Assembly: GCA_902583635.1 (NCBI GenBank)
Contig: CACHWJ010000009.1
Coordinates: forward strand, 1 to 34,114
DNA from: an uncultured Pelagibacteraceae bacterium
Lineage (GTDB): Bacteria > Pseudomonadota > Alphaproteobacteria > Pelagibacterales > Pelagibacteraceae
DNA length: 34,114 bases
Reading direction: 5' to 3'
The position numbers and the translations under genes were made by a program. Below the pieces are notes generated by a model. That model had not been told where the DNA came from. It ran no database searches and worked only from the letters and a program-made list of their open reading frames with translations. Shown piece after piece: positions 6,454 through 28,933 of the stretch. The first letter of the stretch is position 1, and each line of letters starts with the position of its first letter.

Positions 6454-7540
6454 ATTTACAAAAAAAGATAAACTATTCATGGAGATTGCCTTGGACTTGG
6501 CAAGATCTCGTGAAGGATTAACAGGAACTAATCCATCTGTTGGTTGTGTAATAGTTAAAAATGATAATATTATTTCAATTGGTCAAACTTCTTATAATGG
6601 GAGACCTCATGCAGAATTTAATGCAATTAAAAATTGTAACGAAAAACTTAATGGTGCAAAAATGTATGTAACCTTAGAGCCATGCAGCCATCAAGGTGTG
6701 ACTCCACCATGTACAAATGAAATAATTAAATCAAAAATATCTGAAGTTGTTTACGCACTTGAAGATACTGATAAAAGAGTAAGAAAAAAAAGTTTTAAAA
6801 TTTTAAAATCTCATAAAATTAATGTTTCGATAGGCCTTCTAAAAAATAAAGTTAAAAAGTTTTATATTCCATATTTTTTTAATAGAAAAAATAAAAAGCC
6901 TTTTGTAACTGGCAAGATAGCTGTTTCAAAAAACAAACTAATTTATAGTAAATTTAAAAGAAAAATAACTAACCAGTATTCTGATAAATTTACTCATTTA
7001 TTAAGATACAAAAATGACTCAATAATGACATCAAGTAAAACTGTAAATATTGATAACCCTAAATTAAATTGCAGAATAAAAGGTTTTGAAAAATTTTCTC
7101 CAGTAAGAGTTATTCTAGACAATAAATTAAGTTTAAAAAAAAACACTTATATTTTTAAGTCAGCTAATAAAAAAAATACTATCGTGTTTTATAATAAAGC
7201 AAATATGTCAAGAATTTCTATGTTTAAAAAAAAGAAAATAGAACTAATTAAAACAAAATTAAATAACAGTAATTACTTAGATTTAAGACCAATTATGAAA
7301 AAACTTTATTCTTTAGGTTTTAGAAATACTTTAGTTGAGGGAGGCGACCTTCTTACAACAAACTTATTGAAGGATAAAATATTTAATAAATTTTATTTAT
7401 TCAAAAGCCAAAAAAAACTGCCAACAAATTCAGATTTTGTTAAATTTAATGGATTAAATGTCTTAAATAAAAAATATCCATTCAGACAAAATCTTAATTC
7501 TTCCTATGGAAAAGATACAATAACTCATTATAACAAATAA
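6434..7540 (+). CDS. ribD: Bifunctional diaminohydroxyphosphoribosylaminopyrimidine deaminase / uracil reductase
   Basis: Catalyses the deamination and side-chain reduction that follow GTP cyclohydrolase II in riboflavin synthesis. The N-terminal deaminase domain shows the zinc site HAEFNAI and [11 protein letters not shown]. The C-terminal reductase domain begins near [12 protein letters not shown] and ends with [13 protein letters not shown]. The reductase half is divergent: family phrases such as the usual SxDGKIA turn are weakly preserved, although total length (368) is normal. The start is an ATG inside the nrdR 3' end. ribE follows after one base, so the rib genes look co-transcribed. 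Confidence 0.92.
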
Positions 7541-10012: not shown

Positions 10013-10964
10013 ATTTGAATTAATTAAAAATTATTTTTCAAAGATTTCAAAAAAAAATAAATCTGCTCTTAATTTAAATGATGATGTTTTTTTTGATAAG
10101 AAGAAGGGTATAGCTATTTCTATTGATACATATAATTTAGGCTATCACTTTATTGATTTTAAACACCCTCATCTAGTTATTAAAAAAATTTTAAGGTCCT
10201 CTATCTCAGATTTAATTTGTAAAGGAGTGTTGCCAAAATTTTATTTTATAGCTGGTTCAGGTAATAAAAAGACTTTTTCCAAAAAAAATTTATCCCTAAT
10301 TTCAAATTCCTTAATACAGGAACAAAATAAATATAATATTGTTTTATGTGGGGGTGATACTACATTTTCTAATAAACTTAGCTTTACTATTACATCGCTA
10401 GGTTATTCAAAAAAAATTATTTATAGAAATAAAGCTTTAGTAAATGATGATATTTATGTAACAGGTAATTTGGGTGATAGCTTTATGGGTCTACAAATTT
10501 TAAAAAACAAAATTAAAGTATCTAAAGAACTAAAAAAATATTTTGCTCAAAAATATTATCTACCTGATATACAAATAAAGCTGACTAAAAAGTTATTAAA
10601 ATTTGCAAATTCCTCTATTGATTTGTCTGATGGTCTGATTGATGATTTGAGTAAAATGATAAACAATCAAAATTTATCATTTTCCTTGAATGAAAACAAA
10701 ATACCAATTTCAAAGAATTTGTTAAAAATAATAAAAATGAAGACCATGAAAAAGATTAAACTTTTATCTAATGGTGATGATTATCAGATTTTATTTACTG
10801 CAAGCAAAGATAAATCTAGAATCATAGCCCAAACATCAAAAAATCTTGGTATTAAAATTTCTAAAATAGGTAAAATTTGTTCTAATAAAAAAAGATCAGT
10901 AATTATTGATGAAAAAGGTAAGGAAATAGTACTTAAAAACAAAGGTTATGTTCATCAATTCTAA
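10005..10964 (+). CDS. thiL: Thiamine-monophosphate kinase
   Basis: Phosphorylates thiamine monophosphate to the cofactor thiamine pyrophosphate. Features of the AIR-synthase/ThiL fold include the N-terminal HEFELIKNYF, the aspartate-rich LNLNDDVFF and DTYNLGYHF, SSISDLICKGVLPKF, LCGGDTTF and, late in the protein, SSIDLSDGLIDDLSK and LLSNGDDYQILFT. Length is 319. It ends the long + run that begins at the oxygenase-like gene. The protein is diverged but the metal/ATP-binding Asp motifs are intact. Confidence 0.9.
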   Translation: MHEFELIKNYFSKISKKNKSALNLNDDVFFDKKKGIAISIDTYNLGYHFIDFKHPHLVIKKILRSSISDLICKGVLPKFYFIAGSGNKKTFSKKNLSLISNSLIQEQNKYNIVLCGGDTTFSNKLSFTITSLGYSKKIIYRNKALVNDDIYVTGNLGDSFMGLQILKNKIKVSKELKKYFAQKYYLPDIQIKLTKKLLKFANSSIDLSDGLIDDLSKMINNQNLSFSLNENKIPISKNLLKIIKMKTMKKIKLLSNGDDYQILFTASKDKSRIIAQTSKNLGIKISKIGKICSNKKRSVIIDEKGKEIVLKNKGYVHQF

Positions 10965-16473: not shown

Positions 16474-17490
16474 ATGTACACCGTAAATACCAAAATTAAT
16501 AATCAATTGTCTTTATGGTTAATTATAATGTTTATTATAATTTCTATTATGATTGTAGTTGGTGGCCTGACCAGACTCACCGACTCTGGTCTTTCAATAA
16601 CTGAATGGCAATTAATTTCTGGATTACTTCCTCCTTTAAATCAGAATGATTGGATATTATATTTTAATTTATACAAAGAAATACCTGAGTTTAAATTACA
16701 GAACTTCAATATGACTTTACAAGAATTTAAAGTTATTTTCTGGTGGGAGTGGGTACACAGAATGTTAGGCAGGTTAATAGGACTATGTTTTTTAATTCCA
16801 CTCATATACTTCTCATTCAAATTAAAAATTACAAAAATAATAAATTTATATTTCATTTTTTTTCTTATTTGCTTCCAAGGCTTTATTGGTTGGTATATGG
16901 TTAGTAGTGGTTTAGTTGATAGGGTAGATGTTAGTCATTTTAGATTATCTGTTCATTTGTTAATTGCTTTTTTAATTTTATCGTTAATTTTTTGGAATTA
17001 TTTAAAATATCAAAATTATAACCAGGTTGTAGAGGGAATAAATTCAACTATTCCTTTTGTATTTTTAGTATTAATATTAATACAAATTGTAATTGGTGCA
17101 TTTGTCTCAGGAATGGATGCTGGAAAAATTTATAATTCCTGGCCCCTGATGGGAAATACCTATTTTCCAAATGATAATAATTTTGAAAATTTATTTAAAT
17201 TATCCGCTTTTAGTGATCCATCATTAGTTCAGTTTATTCATAGAAATCTGGCATATATAATTGGATTATTTTATGTATTAATTTTTTTTAAAGTTTATAA
17301 AAATAAAATCACTAAATTATATAGATCAGTTAATATTTTAGGTTTTTTTATAATCTTACAGATTATTTTAGGAATTTTTACAATTATACTTGGTGCACAA
17401 ATATATATTGCTGCTGTACACCAAGTAAGTTCTATTTTTTTAGTAACTTCATCTATTTATTTTTTCTTTATAAATACCAGAACTAGCTAA
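16474..17490 (+). CDS. ctaA: Heme A synthase (COX15/CtaA)
   Basis: Oxidises the C8 methyl of heme O to give heme A for aa3-type cytochrome oxidase. The 338-residue protein has about eight membrane segments and the four family histidine positions: His95 (EWVHRMLGR), His161 (FRLSVHLLIAF), His256 (FIHRNLAY) and His316 (AAVHQVSS). GGLTRLTDSGLSITEW near the N-terminus is a COX15 signature. Its last 8 bases overlap the end of the convergent metY. Confidence 0.95.
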   Translation: MYTVNTKINNQLSLWLIIMFIIISIMIVVGGLTRLTDSGLSITEWQLISGLLPPLNQNDWILYFNLYKEIPEFKLQNFNMTLQEFKVIFWWEWVHRMLGRLIGLCFLIPLIYFSFKLKITKIINLYFIFFLICFQGFIGWYMVSSGLVDRVDVSHFRLSVHLLIAFLILSLIFWNYLKYQNYNQVVEGINSTIPFVFLVLILIQIVIGAFVSGMDAGKIYNSWPLMGNTYFPNDNNFENLFKLSAFSDPSLVQFIHRNLAYIIGLFYVLIFFKVYKNKITKLYRSVNILGFFIILQIILGIFTIILGAQIYIAAVHQVSSIFLVTSSIYFFFINTRTS

Positions 17491-18811
17491 CCGCTTTAAG
17501 CTTACCTTTTGAGGATTTATTTAAAGCTTGATCTAAATCTTCAATAATATCGTCTATATGCTCGATACCTATACACAGTCTGACATAACTTTGTGTTACA
17601 CCAGATGCAATAAGCTCTTTTTCATTTAATTGACTGTGTGTTGTACTGGCTGGGTGGATAGCTAAACTTCTAGCATCCCCAATGTTTGCAACATGATAAA
17701 ACATTTTTAATGATTCAATAAATTTTTTACCAGCTTCAATTCCACCTTTTAGCTCAATGCCAACCATTGGTCCATTTCCACCCTTTAAGTAATGTTTAGC
17801 TCTGTCTGAAATATGTTTATCATGCTCTGTTGAATAAATTACTTTGGTTACTTCTTTATGTTTTTTTAAAAAATTAACAGCCTTTTGTGCATTTTCACAA
17901 TGCTGTTTCATTCTTAAAGCCACAGTTTCAAGACCTTGTATAATTGCAAAAGCATTATCAGGTGCACATGCTGATCCTAGATCTCTCAACAGGCAAACTC
18001 TAGCACGTACAGCAAAAGGAACATTGGCACCAGTCATTTCAGGCACTGCTTTTCCCCATATAACATTATTGTAGCTAGCATCTGGTTCGTTAAATAAAGG
18101 CTGTCTTTTAGGATCAGCTGTCCAATCGAAATTCCCACTATCAACAATACTCCCAGCGATTGCTGTTCCATGTCCACCAATATATTTTGTTAAAGAATGA
18201 ATAACTACAGCAGCTCCATGTTCAATAGGCTTGCAAATAACAGGGGCGGCAGTATTATCCATTATAAGAGGAATATTATATCTTCTTCCAATATCTGAAA
18301 CTTCTTTAATAGGGAAAACTCTTAAATATGGATTAGGTAGAGTTTCTCCATAAAAAGCACGCGTATTATCATCAATTAGTTTTTCAAAATTTTTAGGATC
18401 ACTCGGATCTGCATATCTTATCTCTATTCCAAGTTTACTAAGTGTATTGTTAAATAATGATACAGTTCCACCATATAAATCGGTAGAACTAATGATGTTA
18501 TCACCAGCTTGAGCAACATTTAATACTGCAAAAGAGGAGGCTGTCTGACCAGAAGACACAGTTACACACGACAAACCACCTTCAAGAGCAGCAACTCTTT
18601 TCTCTAACACGTCATTTGTAGGATTCATTATTCTTGTATAAATGTTTCCAAACTCTTTTAGTGAAAACAAATTAGCTGCATGCTCTGTACTGTTAAACTC
18701 ATATGATGTAGTTCTATATATAGGTACAGCAACAGCATTTGTTGCAGGATCACTTCTGTAATCACCACCATGAACCGCAATAGTCTCAGGATTATTTCTT
18801 TTATTTCTCAT
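17483..18811 (-). CDS. metY: O-acetylhomoserine sulfhydrylase / aminocarboxypropyltransferase
   Basis: PLP enzyme of the Cys/Met metabolism family that makes homocysteine from O-acetylhomoserine and sulfide. The PLP lysine is Lys209 in VIHSLTKYIGGHG. Family marks include ETIAVHGGDYRSDPATNAVAVPIY, YTRIMNPTNDVLEKRVAALEGG and SSGQTASSFA. The 442 residues are typical of MetY and longer than MetB/MetC. The leader carries a SAM-V riboswitch over the ribosome-binding site and a SAM-II riboswitch upstream of it, so expression should fall when S-adenosylmethionine is abundant. hom, on the same contig, supplies the homoserine backbone. Confidence 0.94.
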   Translation of the reverse strand: MRNKRNNPETIAVHGGDYRSDPATNAVAVPIYRTTSYEFNSTEHAANLFSLKEFGNIYTRIMNPTNDVLEKRVAALEGGLSCVTVSSGQTASSFAVLNVAQAGDNIISSTDLYGGTVSLFNNTLSKLGIEIRYADPSDPKNFEKLIDDNTRAFYGETLPNPYLRVFPIKEVSDIGRRYNIPLIMDNTAAPVICKPIEHGAAVVIHSLTKYIGGHGTAIAGSIVDSGNFDWTADPKRQPLFNEPDASYNNVIWGKAVPEMTGANVPFAVRARVCLLRDLGSACAPDNAFAIIQGLETVALRMKQHCENAQKAVNFLKKHKEVTKVIYSTEHDKHISDRAKHYLKGGNGPMVGIELKGGIEAGKKFIESLKMFYHVANIGDARSLAIHPASTTHSQLNEKELIASGVTQSYVRLCIGIEHIDDIIEDLDQALNKSSKGKLKAVS

Positions 18812-18816
18812 AATAT

Positions 18817-18875
18817 GCTCCTTTTTTAGTGCTTTAACTTAATGTGAGGCGCACAATATAGTTCAAATGCCTACC
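18817..18875 (-). promoter_or_regulatory. SAM-V riboswitch in the metY leader
   Basis: Read on the minus strand: an AGGC / GCCT stem encloses CATTTGAACTATATTGT, and GTGC (next to the GCCT arm) can pair with GCAC further on to form a pseudoknot. ACTAAAAAAGGAGC follows, and within it AAGGAG is the metY ribosome-binding site, seven bases before the ATG. This matches the SAM-V consensus known from Pelagibacter metY and bhmT leaders. Ligand binding should hide the ribosome-binding site, giving translational repression. Confidence 0.88.
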
Positions 18876-18890
18876 GATAATTTATGAAAT

Positions 18891-25107: not shown

Positions 25108-25119
25108 CAGTAGTTATAG

Positions 25120-25265
25120 GCACGTCGTTTACTCGCTACCGCCATGCCACCCGCTTCGCGCGTTCAGCGATTCCCCGCGAAACTTTCTGCCCTCTGAAAT
25201 TGTTCCTTGCGGTTTTTCTCCAGCTGGCCAGTTAAGGGTTGCCCCTTAATTAAGCTTAACATATC
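25120..25265. other. GC-rich structured island of unknown nature
   Basis: Bases 25121-25250 contain 72 G/C of 130 (about 55%), against roughly 25-30% in the flanks. No conserved protein is recognised. The island contains two further stem-loops, TTCGCG/CGCGAA (25155-25181) and TTAAGGG/CCCTTAA with a TTGC loop (25232-25249), plus overlapping palindromes CCAGCTGG and CTGGCCAG near 25220-25232. High GC with stems in an AT-rich genome suggests a structured RNA, a repeat family or foreign DNA. It does not match tRNA, tmRNA, 6S, SRP or RNase P RNA as far as I can read. Confidence 0.55.
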
Positions 25266-25343: not shown

Positions 25344-25520
25344 CTAATCACCAAACACAAGTATAAAATAGCTTATTAAAAAAAAAATAAAGAGTATTGA
25401 TAAATATATTGTCTCTATAGTTTTTCCAACTTTCTTATATTGAATAATGCTTAGAATCGCAAAAGCTATGGCGGTAATGAGAAAATAATTAGGTTCTATT
25501 AATCCGTTCATCGACGCCAT
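25344..25520 (-). CDS. Small two-helix membrane protein, uncharacterised
   Basis: A 58-codon frame starting at the ATG at 25518-25520 and stopping with TAG. The peptide starts MASMNGLIEPNYFLITAIAF and has two strongly hydrophobic stretches, about residues 12-27 and 39-56, joined by a basic loop QYKKVGKT, ending FGD. That hairpin topology resembles small holin-like or toxin-like peptides, but no family is recognised. It is divergent from the recombinase and shares its promoter region; a TTGATA / 18 bp / TAATAT promoter can be drawn on the minus strand at 25561-25590. Moderate confidence that it is real. Confidence 0.5.
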   Translation of the reverse strand: MASMNGLIEPNYFLITAIAFAILSIIQYKKVGKTIETIYLSILFIFFLISYFILVFGD

Positions 25521-25538: not shown

Positions 25539-25567
25539 TTGACATTAAAAATCATCTAATATATTAC
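25539..25567 (+). promoter_or_regulatory. Promoter of the tyrosine recombinase
   Basis: A consensus TTGACA at 25539-25544, a 17-bp spacer and TATTAC at 25562-25567. The start site near 25574 leaves a leader of about 26 nt. The -10 overlaps the left arm of the inverted repeat at 25563-25597, so protein bound there should block transcription. Confidence 0.65.
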
Positions 25568-25597
25568 TATCGATAATTAATTGTTATCAATAGTAAT
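25563..25597. repeat. 35-bp inverted repeat shaped like a tyrosine-recombinase core site
   Basis: Left arm ATTACTATCGATAA (25563-25576) and right arm TTATCAATAGTAAT (25584-25597) are inverted copies with one mismatch in 14, separated by a 7-bp TTAATTG. Arm-spacer-arm geometry of 14-7-14 is close to loxP (13-8-13) and dif (11-6-11). It lies three bases upstream of the recombinase ATG and covers the -10 of its promoter. Site function is inference. Confidence 0.6.
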
Positions 25598-25600
25598 TGT

Positions 25601-26554
25601 ATGAATGAGCTAACAACAGATCTAAAAACACTTCACGAGGAAACTTTAAATAATCTCAGAAGTTCAAAAGCAAATAATACTTTAAGAGCTTATAAATCTG
25701 ACTTTAAAGACTTCGGTGCTTTTTGTTCAAAGCATAGGTTAAATTCATTGCCAACAGAGCCAAAAATTGTTTCCTTATACCTAACTCATCTCTCCAAATG
25801 CTCAAAAATAAGCACTTTAAGAAGAAGATTGGTTTCAATAAGCATGGTACATAAGTTGAAAGGACACTATTTGGATACTAAACATCCGATCATAGTTGAA
25901 AATTTAATGGGAATAAGAAGGGTCATAGGAAGTATTCAGAAAGGCAAAAAACCTATATTAATCAATCATTTAAAATTAATTATTAATGCTATAAATGAGC
26001 AAAACATTGAAGAAATTAAAAAATTTAGAGACAAATCAATAATCTTAATCGGCTTTGGGGGTGGTTTTAGAAGAACAGAGCTCATCTCAATTGATCATGA
26101 GGATTTAGAATTTACTCCTGAGGGTCTCAAAATCACTATTAAAAAATCTAAAACTGACCAAATTGGTGAAGGAATGACAAAAGCACTACCCTACTTCGAT
26201 AATGAAATTTACTGTCCAGTTAAAAACTTAAAAAAATGGTTAGAAATTTCTAAAATTAAGTCTGGACCTATTTTTAGAAGATTTTCAAAAGGTTTATCAT
26301 TAACAAATAAAAGATTAAGTGACCAATCTGTAGTTTTATTAATTAAAGAATATTTAAAATTAGCAGGTATCGAAAATAAAAATTTTTCTGGACATAGTTT
26401 AAGGTCAGGATTTGCAACAGTAGCTGCTGAGTCAGGTGCAGATGAGCGAAGTATAATGGCTATGACAGGTCATAAAACAACCGAAATGGTAAGAAGATAT
26501 ATCAAAGAAGCAAATCTATTTAAAAATAATGCTTTAAATAAAATAAAATTTTAA
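25601..26554 (+). CDS. Tyrosine recombinase / integrase
   Basis: 317 residues. The N-terminal SAM-like domain (about residues 10-95, TLRAYKSDFKDFGAFCSKHRL) is followed by the catalytic domain. Catalytic residues are visible: Arg157 in GGGFRRTELIS, Lys184 in KKSKTDQ, His265 and Arg268 in HSLRSGFAT, His291 in GHKTTEMV and nucleophile Tyr300 in RRYIKEA. It resembles integrases of phages, plasmids or islands more than XerC/D, because it lacks the Xer C-terminal tail pattern. It is not adjacent to a tRNA: tRNA-Glu lies 2.4 kb away. The glycosyltransferase gene converges on it with a 16-bp gap. Confidence 0.93.
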   Translation: MNELTTDLKTLHEETLNNLRSSKANNTLRAYKSDFKDFGAFCSKHRLNSLPTEPKIVSLYLTHLSKCSKISTLRRRLVSISMVHKLKGHYLDTKHPIIVENLMGIRRVIGSIQKGKKPILINHLKLIINAINEQNIEEIKKFRDKSIILIGFGGGFRRTELISIDHEDLEFTPEGLKITIKKSKTDQIGEGMTKALPYFDNEIYCPVKNLKKWLEISKIKSGPIFRRFSKGLSLTNKRLSDQSVVLLIKEYLKLAGIENKNFSGHSLRSGFATVAAESGADERSIMAMTGHKTTEMVRRYIKEANLFKNNALNKIKF

Positions 26555-26570
26555 AAATTAATCAAATTTA

Positions 26571-28673
26571 TTATTTATTCTCCCAAAAAAAATTAAGTTT
26601 GGTATTGATATTTAAAGTTTTATTAACAATAAAATGAGCAATTTTTTCAGAATTCATTTTGGTATGATATTTTTTCATTCCCTGGTATGCAATTTTATTC
26701 CTTAATTTATCAGAGTTTTTAAATTTGATAATCTTATTAATTAAATCATTATTATTTTTGTAAAATACAACTTCTTTTTTTGAAAATAATTTATTAAGTT
26801 GAGTTCTCACATCAACAAATGTAAGAATACCGTTTCCAATTAATTGTGCAAGTCTATCACTAGAATAAAATTTTAATGGATTACCCTGACTAAGATTTAA
26901 TGCCATTTTTGATTTTGATAACTCATTTTTGAATTCTTCAGCCCATACAGGTTGATTGTTTTTCATACCAAAAATATTAAATTTAATTTGATTATTGCCA
27001 TTCATCAATTTTAAAATAAATGATTCCCTTTTATCAATTTTACCTTTCCTCAATATGCCACGATGAACACCGTGAGAGATTGCAAAAAAAAGATCATATT
27101 TATAAACTTTATTTTTATAAATTTTCATATTTTCAAAGGTTTGGTCAACAGGATTCGGTATAAAAAAAATTTTTTTAGATTTTAAATTTCCTAAAGACGA
27201 TGGATGGGTTGTACAAAAACTTGCATCTAAACTTTCAATTTTACTTAAAAATCTTAATTTGTTATTTTTCCAATTTTTATTATCCATCCTATCTAAAAAC
27301 CACTGACAAAATTTAATACTTGGATAAAATTTTCTTATTTGTTCTAATGTATAATTTGAAATTTGATCGGCATGTCCTAATACAATTAAATGAGGATTAA
27401 AATTACCAACAATTTCAAATAACCTATTATTTAGTGAATTAGATCCATAAATATCTGTTATTTTACGATCTTGACTAATAATATCTCTATCACTGAATGT
27501 TTGAACTGTATGACCTAATTTAATAAATCCATTATTAATTCTACGCCCAGTATTATAAAATAATCTGCCATTATGTCTAATATTGAAGTTTGTGATATGT
27601 AAAATTCTAATTTTGTTTTGATAGAATTTTGAGTTTAAAAATAGTTTTTTTCTATAATTATCAATTAATTTCGATGTAAAATCATTAGTGAGGTAAAAAT
27701 TTTTGTAAGAATTAAATTGTAAGTTCTTTAATTTATTTTTATTTAATATTAATTTTTTAATTTCCTTATAAATTTCACTACTCGAAAGTTTTTTTAAAAT
27801 AATACCATCCGTCACAGTCTCAGGTAAACCTCCCTTATTACTAATTATTACAGCACATCCCCTACTACTAGCTTCTAAACTTGATCTGCCAAATGGCTCA
27901 TCCCATCTTGAACAAGCAACAGCGATTGAGGATTTTTTTAGAAATTTAAGGATGCTTTCATTTGATTGGTATCCTTTATTAATAAGTCTTTCATGATTAA
28001 AAATTATTTTTTCCCTAGGCTCATCTCCAAAAACAATACATTTCCAATCTTTAAATTCATTTAAAATATTCAATACTGCTTCACCAAATAAATCATAACC
28101 CTTTGATTTATTTAATTTTCCAACAAAAGTTATTATCTTTTCTTTTTTATCAAATTGAATTTTTTCAAAACTAGTAGATTGATGAATAATTTCAATTTTT
28201 TCACTATTATAATAAAATTTATTTATATCTTTAAAAAAACGTTTTTTTGTCCATTCACTATTAAAAATAATTTTATGACAAAAATTTAATATAAATAAAC
28301 GTTCACTTACTGAAGTAGAGCCGCTCATAGAAAGTGGATCATTATGAAAATAAAAAACTATTTTTTTTTTAAAATAAGAAAAAAATTTAAGATAAGACGG
28401 CCTATTATGTATTTCTAAAATATCTGATTTTCTTTTTTTTTCCAATTTAATGAAGTTGTTTACATAAATTTTTGAAGAACTTTGAAATATTTTTTTGCTA
28501 AAAGGTATATTTACATAATTTTTTGATAAAATATTTTTATAAACTGTATTTCCATAAACTTTAGTTGATTTATAAATACTTTTTTTATTTACACCGTTTA
28601 TAAAAACTGAAACAGCTCCTGCATTATCTCTTGAAAAATTTTCCTTATAAGGAAGTAGAATGGATATTTTCAT
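26571..28673 (-). CDS. Two-domain glycosyltransferase (GT4 plus CgeB-like GT)
   Basis: A 700-residue fusion of two GT-B type enzymes. Residues 1-345 form a GT4 domain with FVGKLNKSKGYDLF (186-196) and the EX7E donor-binding element EPFGRSSLE (Glu259, Glu267), followed by GGLPETVTDG. Residues 354-700 form a second GT-B unit resembling the CgeB/GT1-like group: RILHITNFNIRHNG, FIPNPVD, then RLAQLIGNGILTFVD near the C-terminus. There is no membrane segment. Such enzymes add sugars to surface polysaccharide or protein. Very high Lys/Asn/Phe content. The ATG overlaps the stop of the upstream GIY-YIG gene. Confidence 0.85.
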   Translation of the reverse strand: MKISILLPYKENFSRDNAGAVSVFINGVNKKSIYKSTKVYGNTVYKNILSKNYVNIPFSKKIFQSSSKIYVNNFIKLEKKRKSDILEIHNRPSYLKFFSYFKKKIVFYFHNDPLSMSGSTSVSERLFILNFCHKIIFNSEWTKKRFFKDINKFYYNSEKIEIIHQSTSFEKIQFDKKEKIITFVGKLNKSKGYDLFGEAVLNILNEFKDWKCIVFGDEPREKIIFNHERLINKGYQSNESILKFLKKSSIAVACSRWDEPFGRSSLEASSRGCAVIISNKGGLPETVTDGIILKKLSSSEIYKEIKKLILNKNKLKNLQFNSYKNFYLTNDFTSKLIDNYRKKLFLNSKFYQNKIRILHITNFNIRHNGRLFYNTGRRINNGFIKLGHTVQTFSDRDIISQDRKITDIYGSNSLNNRLFEIVGNFNPHLIVLGHADQISNYTLEQIRKFYPSIKFCQWFLDRMDNKNWKNNKLRFLSKIESLDASFCTTHPSSLGNLKSKKIFFIPNPVDQTFENMKIYKNKVYKYDLFFAISHGVHRGILRKGKIDKRESFILKLMNGNNQIKFNIFGMKNNQPVWAEEFKNELSKSKMALNLSQGNPLKFYSSDRLAQLIGNGILTFVDVRTQLNKLFSKKEVVFYKNNNDLINKIIKFKNSDKLRNKIAYQGMKKYHTKMNSEKIAHFIVNKTLNINTKLNFFWENK

Positions 28674-28933
28674 TATTTATTATTTAAATAATTTTTTTTA
28701 ATTTTTAATCTTTCTTTATAATTTTTTTTTAAAATAAATTCGTTTCTCATTGCAATCGACTTTGTTGCATAGCCTTTTTTATATATTAATTTCCAATATC
28801 TTCCTCTTGTAAATTTAGCTCCTTTTGAGGAGTTATGTAATTTAATTCTATTAGCAATATTTGAAGTATACCCAACATAAGATGTGGTCTTGTTTTTGTG
28901 AGTGCTAATAATTAAATAAACAAAATACTTCAT
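28673..28933 (-). CDS. GIY-YIG domain protein (YhbQ/UPF0213-like)
   Basis: 86 residues, essentially one GIY-YIG nuclease domain. It starts FVYLIISTHKNKTTSYVGYTSNI, where VYL and YVG are the two short motifs, then has NRIKLHNSSKGAKFTRGRYWKLIY (catalytic-type Arg and the conserved KGAK-x-T-R) and ends with RNEFILKKNYKERLKIKK, containing the conserved Glu. Homologous small proteins are frequent and often move with accessory genes; their role is unsettled. Its stop overlaps the glycosyltransferase start, and tRNA-Glu ends 3 bp upstream of its start codon. Confidence 0.85.
   Translation of the reverse strand: MKYFVYLIISTHKNKTTSYVGYTSNIANRIKLHNSSKGAKFTRGRYWKLIYKKGYATKSIAMRNEFILKKNYKERLKIKKNYLNNK

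Follow-up and report, generated by a model that had tools for sequence, protein, structure and literature searches.

A Conserved Inverted Repeat beside a Cre-like Tyrosine Recombinase: A Probable Single-Recombinase dif System in SAR11 Bacteria

Introduction

In most Proteobacteria, chromosome dimers are resolved at a dif site in the terminus by two recombinases, XerC and XerD. Streptococci and lactococci (XerS/difSL), as well as Campylobacter and Helicobacter (XerH/difH), use a single recombinase; the site lies beside the recombinase gene and at the terminus, consists of one near-constant and one weaker half-site, and is accompanied by FtsK (PMC5357621, PMC2731167). Castillo et al. (2017) suggest that this linkage of site and gene may be a hallmark of systems with a single recombinase, and do not settle how chromosomes are resolved in bacteria that lack Xer recombinases (PMC5357621). 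A 2009 survey reported Pelagibacter to lack a dif/Xer system (PMC2731167), and a literature search returned no paper on dimer resolution in Pelagibacter beyond this statement of absence. Few bacterial groups in the ocean are as abundant as SAR11.

The locus described here resembles XerS/difSL and XerH/difH in each of these features, with one recombinase where XerC/XerD-dif has two. It lies in a window of 34,114 nucleotides, the whole stretch of DNA analyzed, from an uncultured Pelagibacteraceae bacterium (Table 1). Its palindrome and the adjacent recombinase very probably form a single-recombinase dif system that resolves SAR11 chromosome dimers in place of XerC/XerD-dif, a reading that goes beyond the proposals of an earlier note on this DNA.

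Table 1. Features of the locus and its surroundings in the window
Feature	Position	Strand	Remarks
SAM-V riboswitch	18815–18881	-	Precedes a 442-aa ORF (17483–18811)
IMES-2 RNA (RF02035)	25117–25256	-	Structured RNA
Divergent membrane-like protein	25344–25520	-	58 aa; no family match
-35-like box TTGACA	25539–25544	+	Putative recombinase promoter; conserved
-10-like box TATATTAC	25560–25567	+	Overlaps left arm; putative promoter element, from sequence and column conservation
Left arm ATTACTATCGATAA	25563–25576		Type-A site; the slightly less constant half; conserved 5' of orthologues in 134 modules of this type
Central region TTAATTG	25577–25583		7 bp, asymmetric
Right arm TTATCAATAGTAAT	25584–25597		Near-invariant half
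Cre-fold tyrosine recombinase (predicted)	25601–26554	+	317 aa; R157, K184, H265, R268, H291, Y300
Predicted beta hairpin with 12-residue insertion	26276–26314	+	Codons 226–238; modeled strands 226–228 and 234–238
Two-domain glycosyltransferase and GIY-YIG protein	26571–28933	-	Downstream of the recombinase

The Site and Its Conservation

The palindrome at 25563–25597 lies exactly where the earlier note had placed it, with two 14-bp arms that differ by one mismatch, a 7-bp center, and three bases between its end and the recombinase ATG at 25601. Taken alone, such a repeat is only mildly unusual for DNA this rich in AT: when the window was simulated 25 times with a first-order Markov model, 7 turned up in total (about 0.3 per copy), spread over 4 of the 25 copies, and the actual sequence holds another at 10650 with a 9-bp spacer. 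A chance palindrome would thus be possible from the window alone and is excluded by conservation; the significance of the repeat lies in its presence in all 162 distinct recombinase modules. The second core site that had been sought in vain is indeed missing, as no match with three or fewer mismatches occurs elsewhere in the window, and the whole draft genome (0.98 Mb, 42 contigs) has a single copy. Among named genomes, the nearest to this draft are single-cell genomes from Pelagibacteraceae. A 9-bp part-arm at 25395 (TATTGATAA), formerly proposed as a possible arm site, recurs at 7048 and inside the site itself, and nothing sets it apart from a chance match. The bare core GATAA-n6-8-TTATC was rejected as a genome-wide marker because it is too common, occurring at approximately 14–22 places per genome.

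The recombinase is present in 150 of 197 family genomes and in 69 of the 77 high-quality ones, as a rule with one match per genome, and spans 13 of the 14 sampled genera. The site lies directly 5' of the gene in 162/162 modules, always with a 7-bp spacer, which reads TTAATTG in 119 and TTAATGG in 36 of them. Alignments of the upstream regions display a near-invariant block at the site between variable flanks; across the 134 type-A modules, every right-arm column is at least 96% identical, and the left arm has two variable positions (76% and 70%). The adjacent recombinase almost certainly has the palindrome as its core site, as the earlier note suggested, and the check that it named, conservation of the arms upstream of orthologous genes, gave a positive result throughout. 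As in Xer/dif systems, two inverted arms enclose a short central region once per chromosome. Good matches to the site coincide with the recombinase as far as coordinates were compared, three type-A matches with 3 mismatches elsewhere in genomes look like chance, and no duplicated site was found in any host genome searched; reversed-pattern controls gave zero matches for either of the two site types described below. Most of the 8 high-quality genomes (of 77) in which the recombinase was not found are multi-contig drafts, and XerC/XerD were absent as well from those recombinase-less family genomes that were looked up.

This distribution also bears on the idea that the module is part of an integrated phage or island, with the palindrome as its att site. 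The closest relatives outside the family are found on plasmids and viral contigs, and the glycosyltransferase region downstream is variable, both of which would suit a mobile element. However, the module is near-universal and typically single-copy across the genera, each genome has one site and no attL/attR pair, and the neighbors are kept in close loci (the small divergent protein in 65 of 80, ogt in 79 of 80), which makes such an origin very improbable.

Several neighbors of the module were recorded in 80 close Pelagibacter loci. In about 50 of the 80, IMES-2 RNA precedes the recombinase by 285–970 nt; it also adjoins the site in genome G043, lies elsewhere in G009 and G022, and was not found in the other complete genomes examined. 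A literature search for IMES-2 with SAR11 returned nothing relevant, and no described function was found. The homologues of the 58-aa protein lie near the same place in their loci. The glycosyltransferase occurs in 61 of the 80 loci and the GIY-YIG protein in 43, at varied distances, which indicates that the flank of the terminus is variable.

The Recombinase and Its Relatives

The six catalytic residues (R-K-H-R-H-Y) are identical in 162/162 proteins, and the window protein scores 77.4 bits against PF00589 (Phage_integrase; gathering cut-off 27.1). It falls far below the cut-offs of the XerC model TIGR02224 (59 bits, cut-off 335), the XerD model TIGR02225 (71 bits, cut-off 330), and the XerS family model (50 bits, cut-off 267). 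A structure model built from close relatives reached a pLDDT of 51, and one built from a more diverse alignment reached 82; the nearest solved fold to the latter is Cre (Z about 22 over about 290 residues, rmsd about 5 Å). XerH matches the fold with Z 19.7 and did not appear when solved structures were searched by sequence.

Outside the family, the proteins most similar to the recombinase are plasmid enzymes with 39–43% identity. Descent from XerC/XerD was considered and ruled out, as identity to the sister-family XerD is 25% vs. 43% to a plasmid enzyme. Within a sample of 385 alphaproteobacterial genomes, a close orthologue occurs only in Pelagibacteraceae, and other members have scattered relatives at 31–41% identity. 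Many of the plasmid and alphaproteobacterial relatives carry GATAA-n6/7-TTATC near or upstream of the gene; where viral contigs have both site and recombinase, the site mostly precedes the gene by no more than about 60 bp. Three plasmid relatives (L357, L358, and L361) have palindromes with the same core approximately 45–110 bp before the gene, and represent what appears to be an undescribed family of linked plasmid resolution modules.

Two Site Types and Their Covariation with the Recombinase

Two types of site are found in the family, type A (TTACTAnnGATAA...TTATCAATAGTAA) in 96 genomes and type B (TTCCGATAA...TTATCGGAA) in 53 by pattern search; a literature search for the motif TTCCGATAA returned nothing relevant. 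Distant orthologues with 54–69% identity have TTCCGATAATTAATGGTTATCGGAA in place of type A. The outer arms of A and B differ on both sides simultaneously, as expected where one protein binds both arms, and type-A arms are longer, with 13–14 conserved bases against 9–10 in type B. Both types coexist within several genera (for example g1, g3, g4, and g9), and the type tracks the recombinase tree, in which type B forms one group (support 89/95) and type A includes two deep branches.

The protein positions that separate A from B concentrate at residues 223–242. A 12-residue insertion occurs only in recombinases with type-A sites; in the structure model, the hairpin that contains it sits directly before helix 241–254, which is plausibly the DNA-recognition helix. 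Residue 242 (Q or K) separates the types as well and adjoins this predicted helix. The natural A/B pair, in which changes in the arms are matched to a small insertion, offers a clean system for studying site choice by tyrosine recombinases.

Terminus Position, FtsK, and Loss of XerC/XerD

Like Xer/dif sites, the site lies at the GC-skew switch that marks the replication terminus in 5 of 6 complete genomes (G005, G009, G022, G040, and G063), with the switch interval resolved to about 60 kb and the skew sampled over approximately one third of each genome; in G003, the skew optimum is 49–113 kb off the site. The chance of the site falling within the interval is about 5% or less per genome, and five of six under random placement would have a probability of about 2e-6 if shared synteny is ignored, although the six genomes are not fully independent in this respect. 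The distance from the site to ftsK is 0.48–0.53 of the circle in these six genomes. Within the window, cumulative skew reaches its maximum at 22–24 kb, and on either side of the site most genes are oriented towards it.

A search with an XerD model found no XerC or XerD in Pelagibacteraceae, where it detected only the divergent recombinase and a few weak extra matches; most sister-family genomes gave two good matches, one XerD-like and one XerC-like. All 18 genomes tested encode FtsK with the gamma domain. The octamer GGGNAGGG is oriented towards the site 25:5, a bias that ranks third among 56 permutations, with two other G-rich ones as high.

Chromosome dimer resolution is the proposed role because the terminus position, the absence of XerC/XerD, and the retained FtsK-gamma domain all point there. 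Once homologous recombination has joined sister chromosomes, the pumping of DNA by FtsK at the septum would bring their two sites into contact at the terminus. Two recombinase monomers would bind the two arms of each site, and the enzyme would cleave and swap strands across the 7-bp center, yielding two monomeric chromosomes.

Pelagiphages Carrying the Sites

Scans of viral contigs recovered many with exact A or B arms. Among the matches listed, 135 of at least 149 viral loci lack a recombinase gene of this kind in the stretch examined, and 120 of these 135 have a GC content below 0.40. An A-like site lies within 60 bp of a B site at 29 of the at least 94 B sites listed, all on AT-rich contigs, and the corresponding controls (a reversed pattern, or a place 400 bp away) gave none among the matches listed.

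Terminases tie two inspected groups of contigs to pelagiphages, with 79% identity to HTVC106P and 61% to HTVC010P. The small viral contigs had been considered as microviruses, which was ruled out by the terminase and portal of HTVC010P- or HTVC106P-like tailed phages. The cultured phages HTVC106P, HTVC035P, HTVC100P, and HTVC024P have tandem A-like and B-like sites beside the large terminase gene, and Greip has one A site; none was found in the stretch examined of HTVC010P, HTVC204P, HTVC034P, and HTVC203P.

The tandem sites of cultured pelagiphages (L520, L521, L525, L519, and L518) have non-host spacers. Common host spacers occur in 9 of 94 B sites and 3 of 31 A sites among the matches listed, and most phage spacers differ. 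Differing centers usually block recombination by tyrosine recombinases, here with the host chromosome. As the spacers mostly differ and no host genome has a duplicated site, the favored reading is that phage sites would mostly serve the resolution of phage genomes rather than integration. In three pelagiphage-like contigs (L341–L343), a type-A site equals the host site, spacer TTAATTG included, which would allow them to integrate there.

Promoter and Probable Autoregulation

The site is located in the putative promoter of the recombinase gene in every relative compared. All 162 modules have TTGAC no farther than 45 nt from the core, 144 of them at exactly 33 nt, and the -10-like box extends into the left arm, which bears out the overlap with the recombinase promoter proposed earlier. 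Because the site covers part of the -10 region, a bound recombinase would probably repress its own gene. The same note had the divergent small protein share this -10 element, which finds no support: its ORF begins at 25520, at a distance of 43 bp from the site.

Its fixed place in the promoter would also suit a palindrome that is only an operator, bound by the recombinase or another regulator while the recombinase acts elsewhere. Against this, the distance from site to gene varies from 44 to about 880 bp in plasmid relatives, in pelagiphages, both contigs and isolates, the arms flank 6–8-bp spacers at loci that lack a recombinase gene, the arms covary with the recombinase itself, no other candidate site recurring once per genome was found, and a terminus position is meaningless for an operator. 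An operator role alone is hence improbable. That the overlap with the promoter serves phase variation or promoter switching, and that recombination would uncouple the gene from its promoter as once suggested, is hardly credible at all, since the arrangement is the same in all modules and a second site occurs neither in the genome nor in relatives. Under the preferred dimer-resolution reading, recombination between two identical sites regenerates the same junction; nothing is uncoupled, and a second site in the window would not be expected.

Implications and Comparison with Known Systems

It is about an even bet that a Cre-like plasmid multimer-resolution module became the family-wide chromosomal dif, with A and B alleles persisting within the same genera, and that pelagiphages carrying both types in tandem beside the terminase, mostly with altered spacers, recruit either host recombinase, likely to resolve their own genomes and perhaps, in a minority, to integrate. 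The locus offers a concrete, testable answer to how SAR11 chromosomes are resolved, namely a further single-recombinase solution built on a Cre-like, plasmid-type enzyme; the site can serve as a terminus marker for SAR11 genomes, and it may help to trace the use of host enzymes by pelagiphages.

XerS/difSL and XerH/difH are the closest in organization, with several differences. The center is about 11 bp in difSL and 6–10 bp in difH as against 7 bp in SAR11, where the site sequence is also different, and the recombinases are about 355 aa long compared with 317 aa (PMC5357621, PMC2731167). The SAR11 site, unlike theirs, lies inside the promoter of the gene, the bacterial lineage is another one, and the predicted fold is nearer to Cre than to XerH. 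With XerC/XerD-dif, the SAR11 module shares the proposed job and place, and its inner arms are dif-like (ATAA...TTAT).

Cre/loxP of the phage-plasmid P1 likewise combines short palindromic arms with a small asymmetric spacer, and has plasmid-type relatives. Cre gives the best match among solved folds, over nearly the whole protein, yet its identity to the SAR11 enzyme is 19–22%, and loxP is built as 13-8-13 where the SAR11 spacer is 7 bp in every module. Cre works without FtsK, whereas the SAR11 module is chromosomal, family-wide, and at the terminus in genomes with FtsK-gamma. The closest proteins by sequence outside the family are the plasmid integrases of Alicyclobacillus, Sporosarcina, and Paenibacillus, which align over the whole protein and, in most cases, have GATAA-n-TTATC palindromes upstream as in SAR11; in contrast to the SAR11 enzyme at its chromosome terminus, they reside on plasmids and are annotated only as site-specific integrases.
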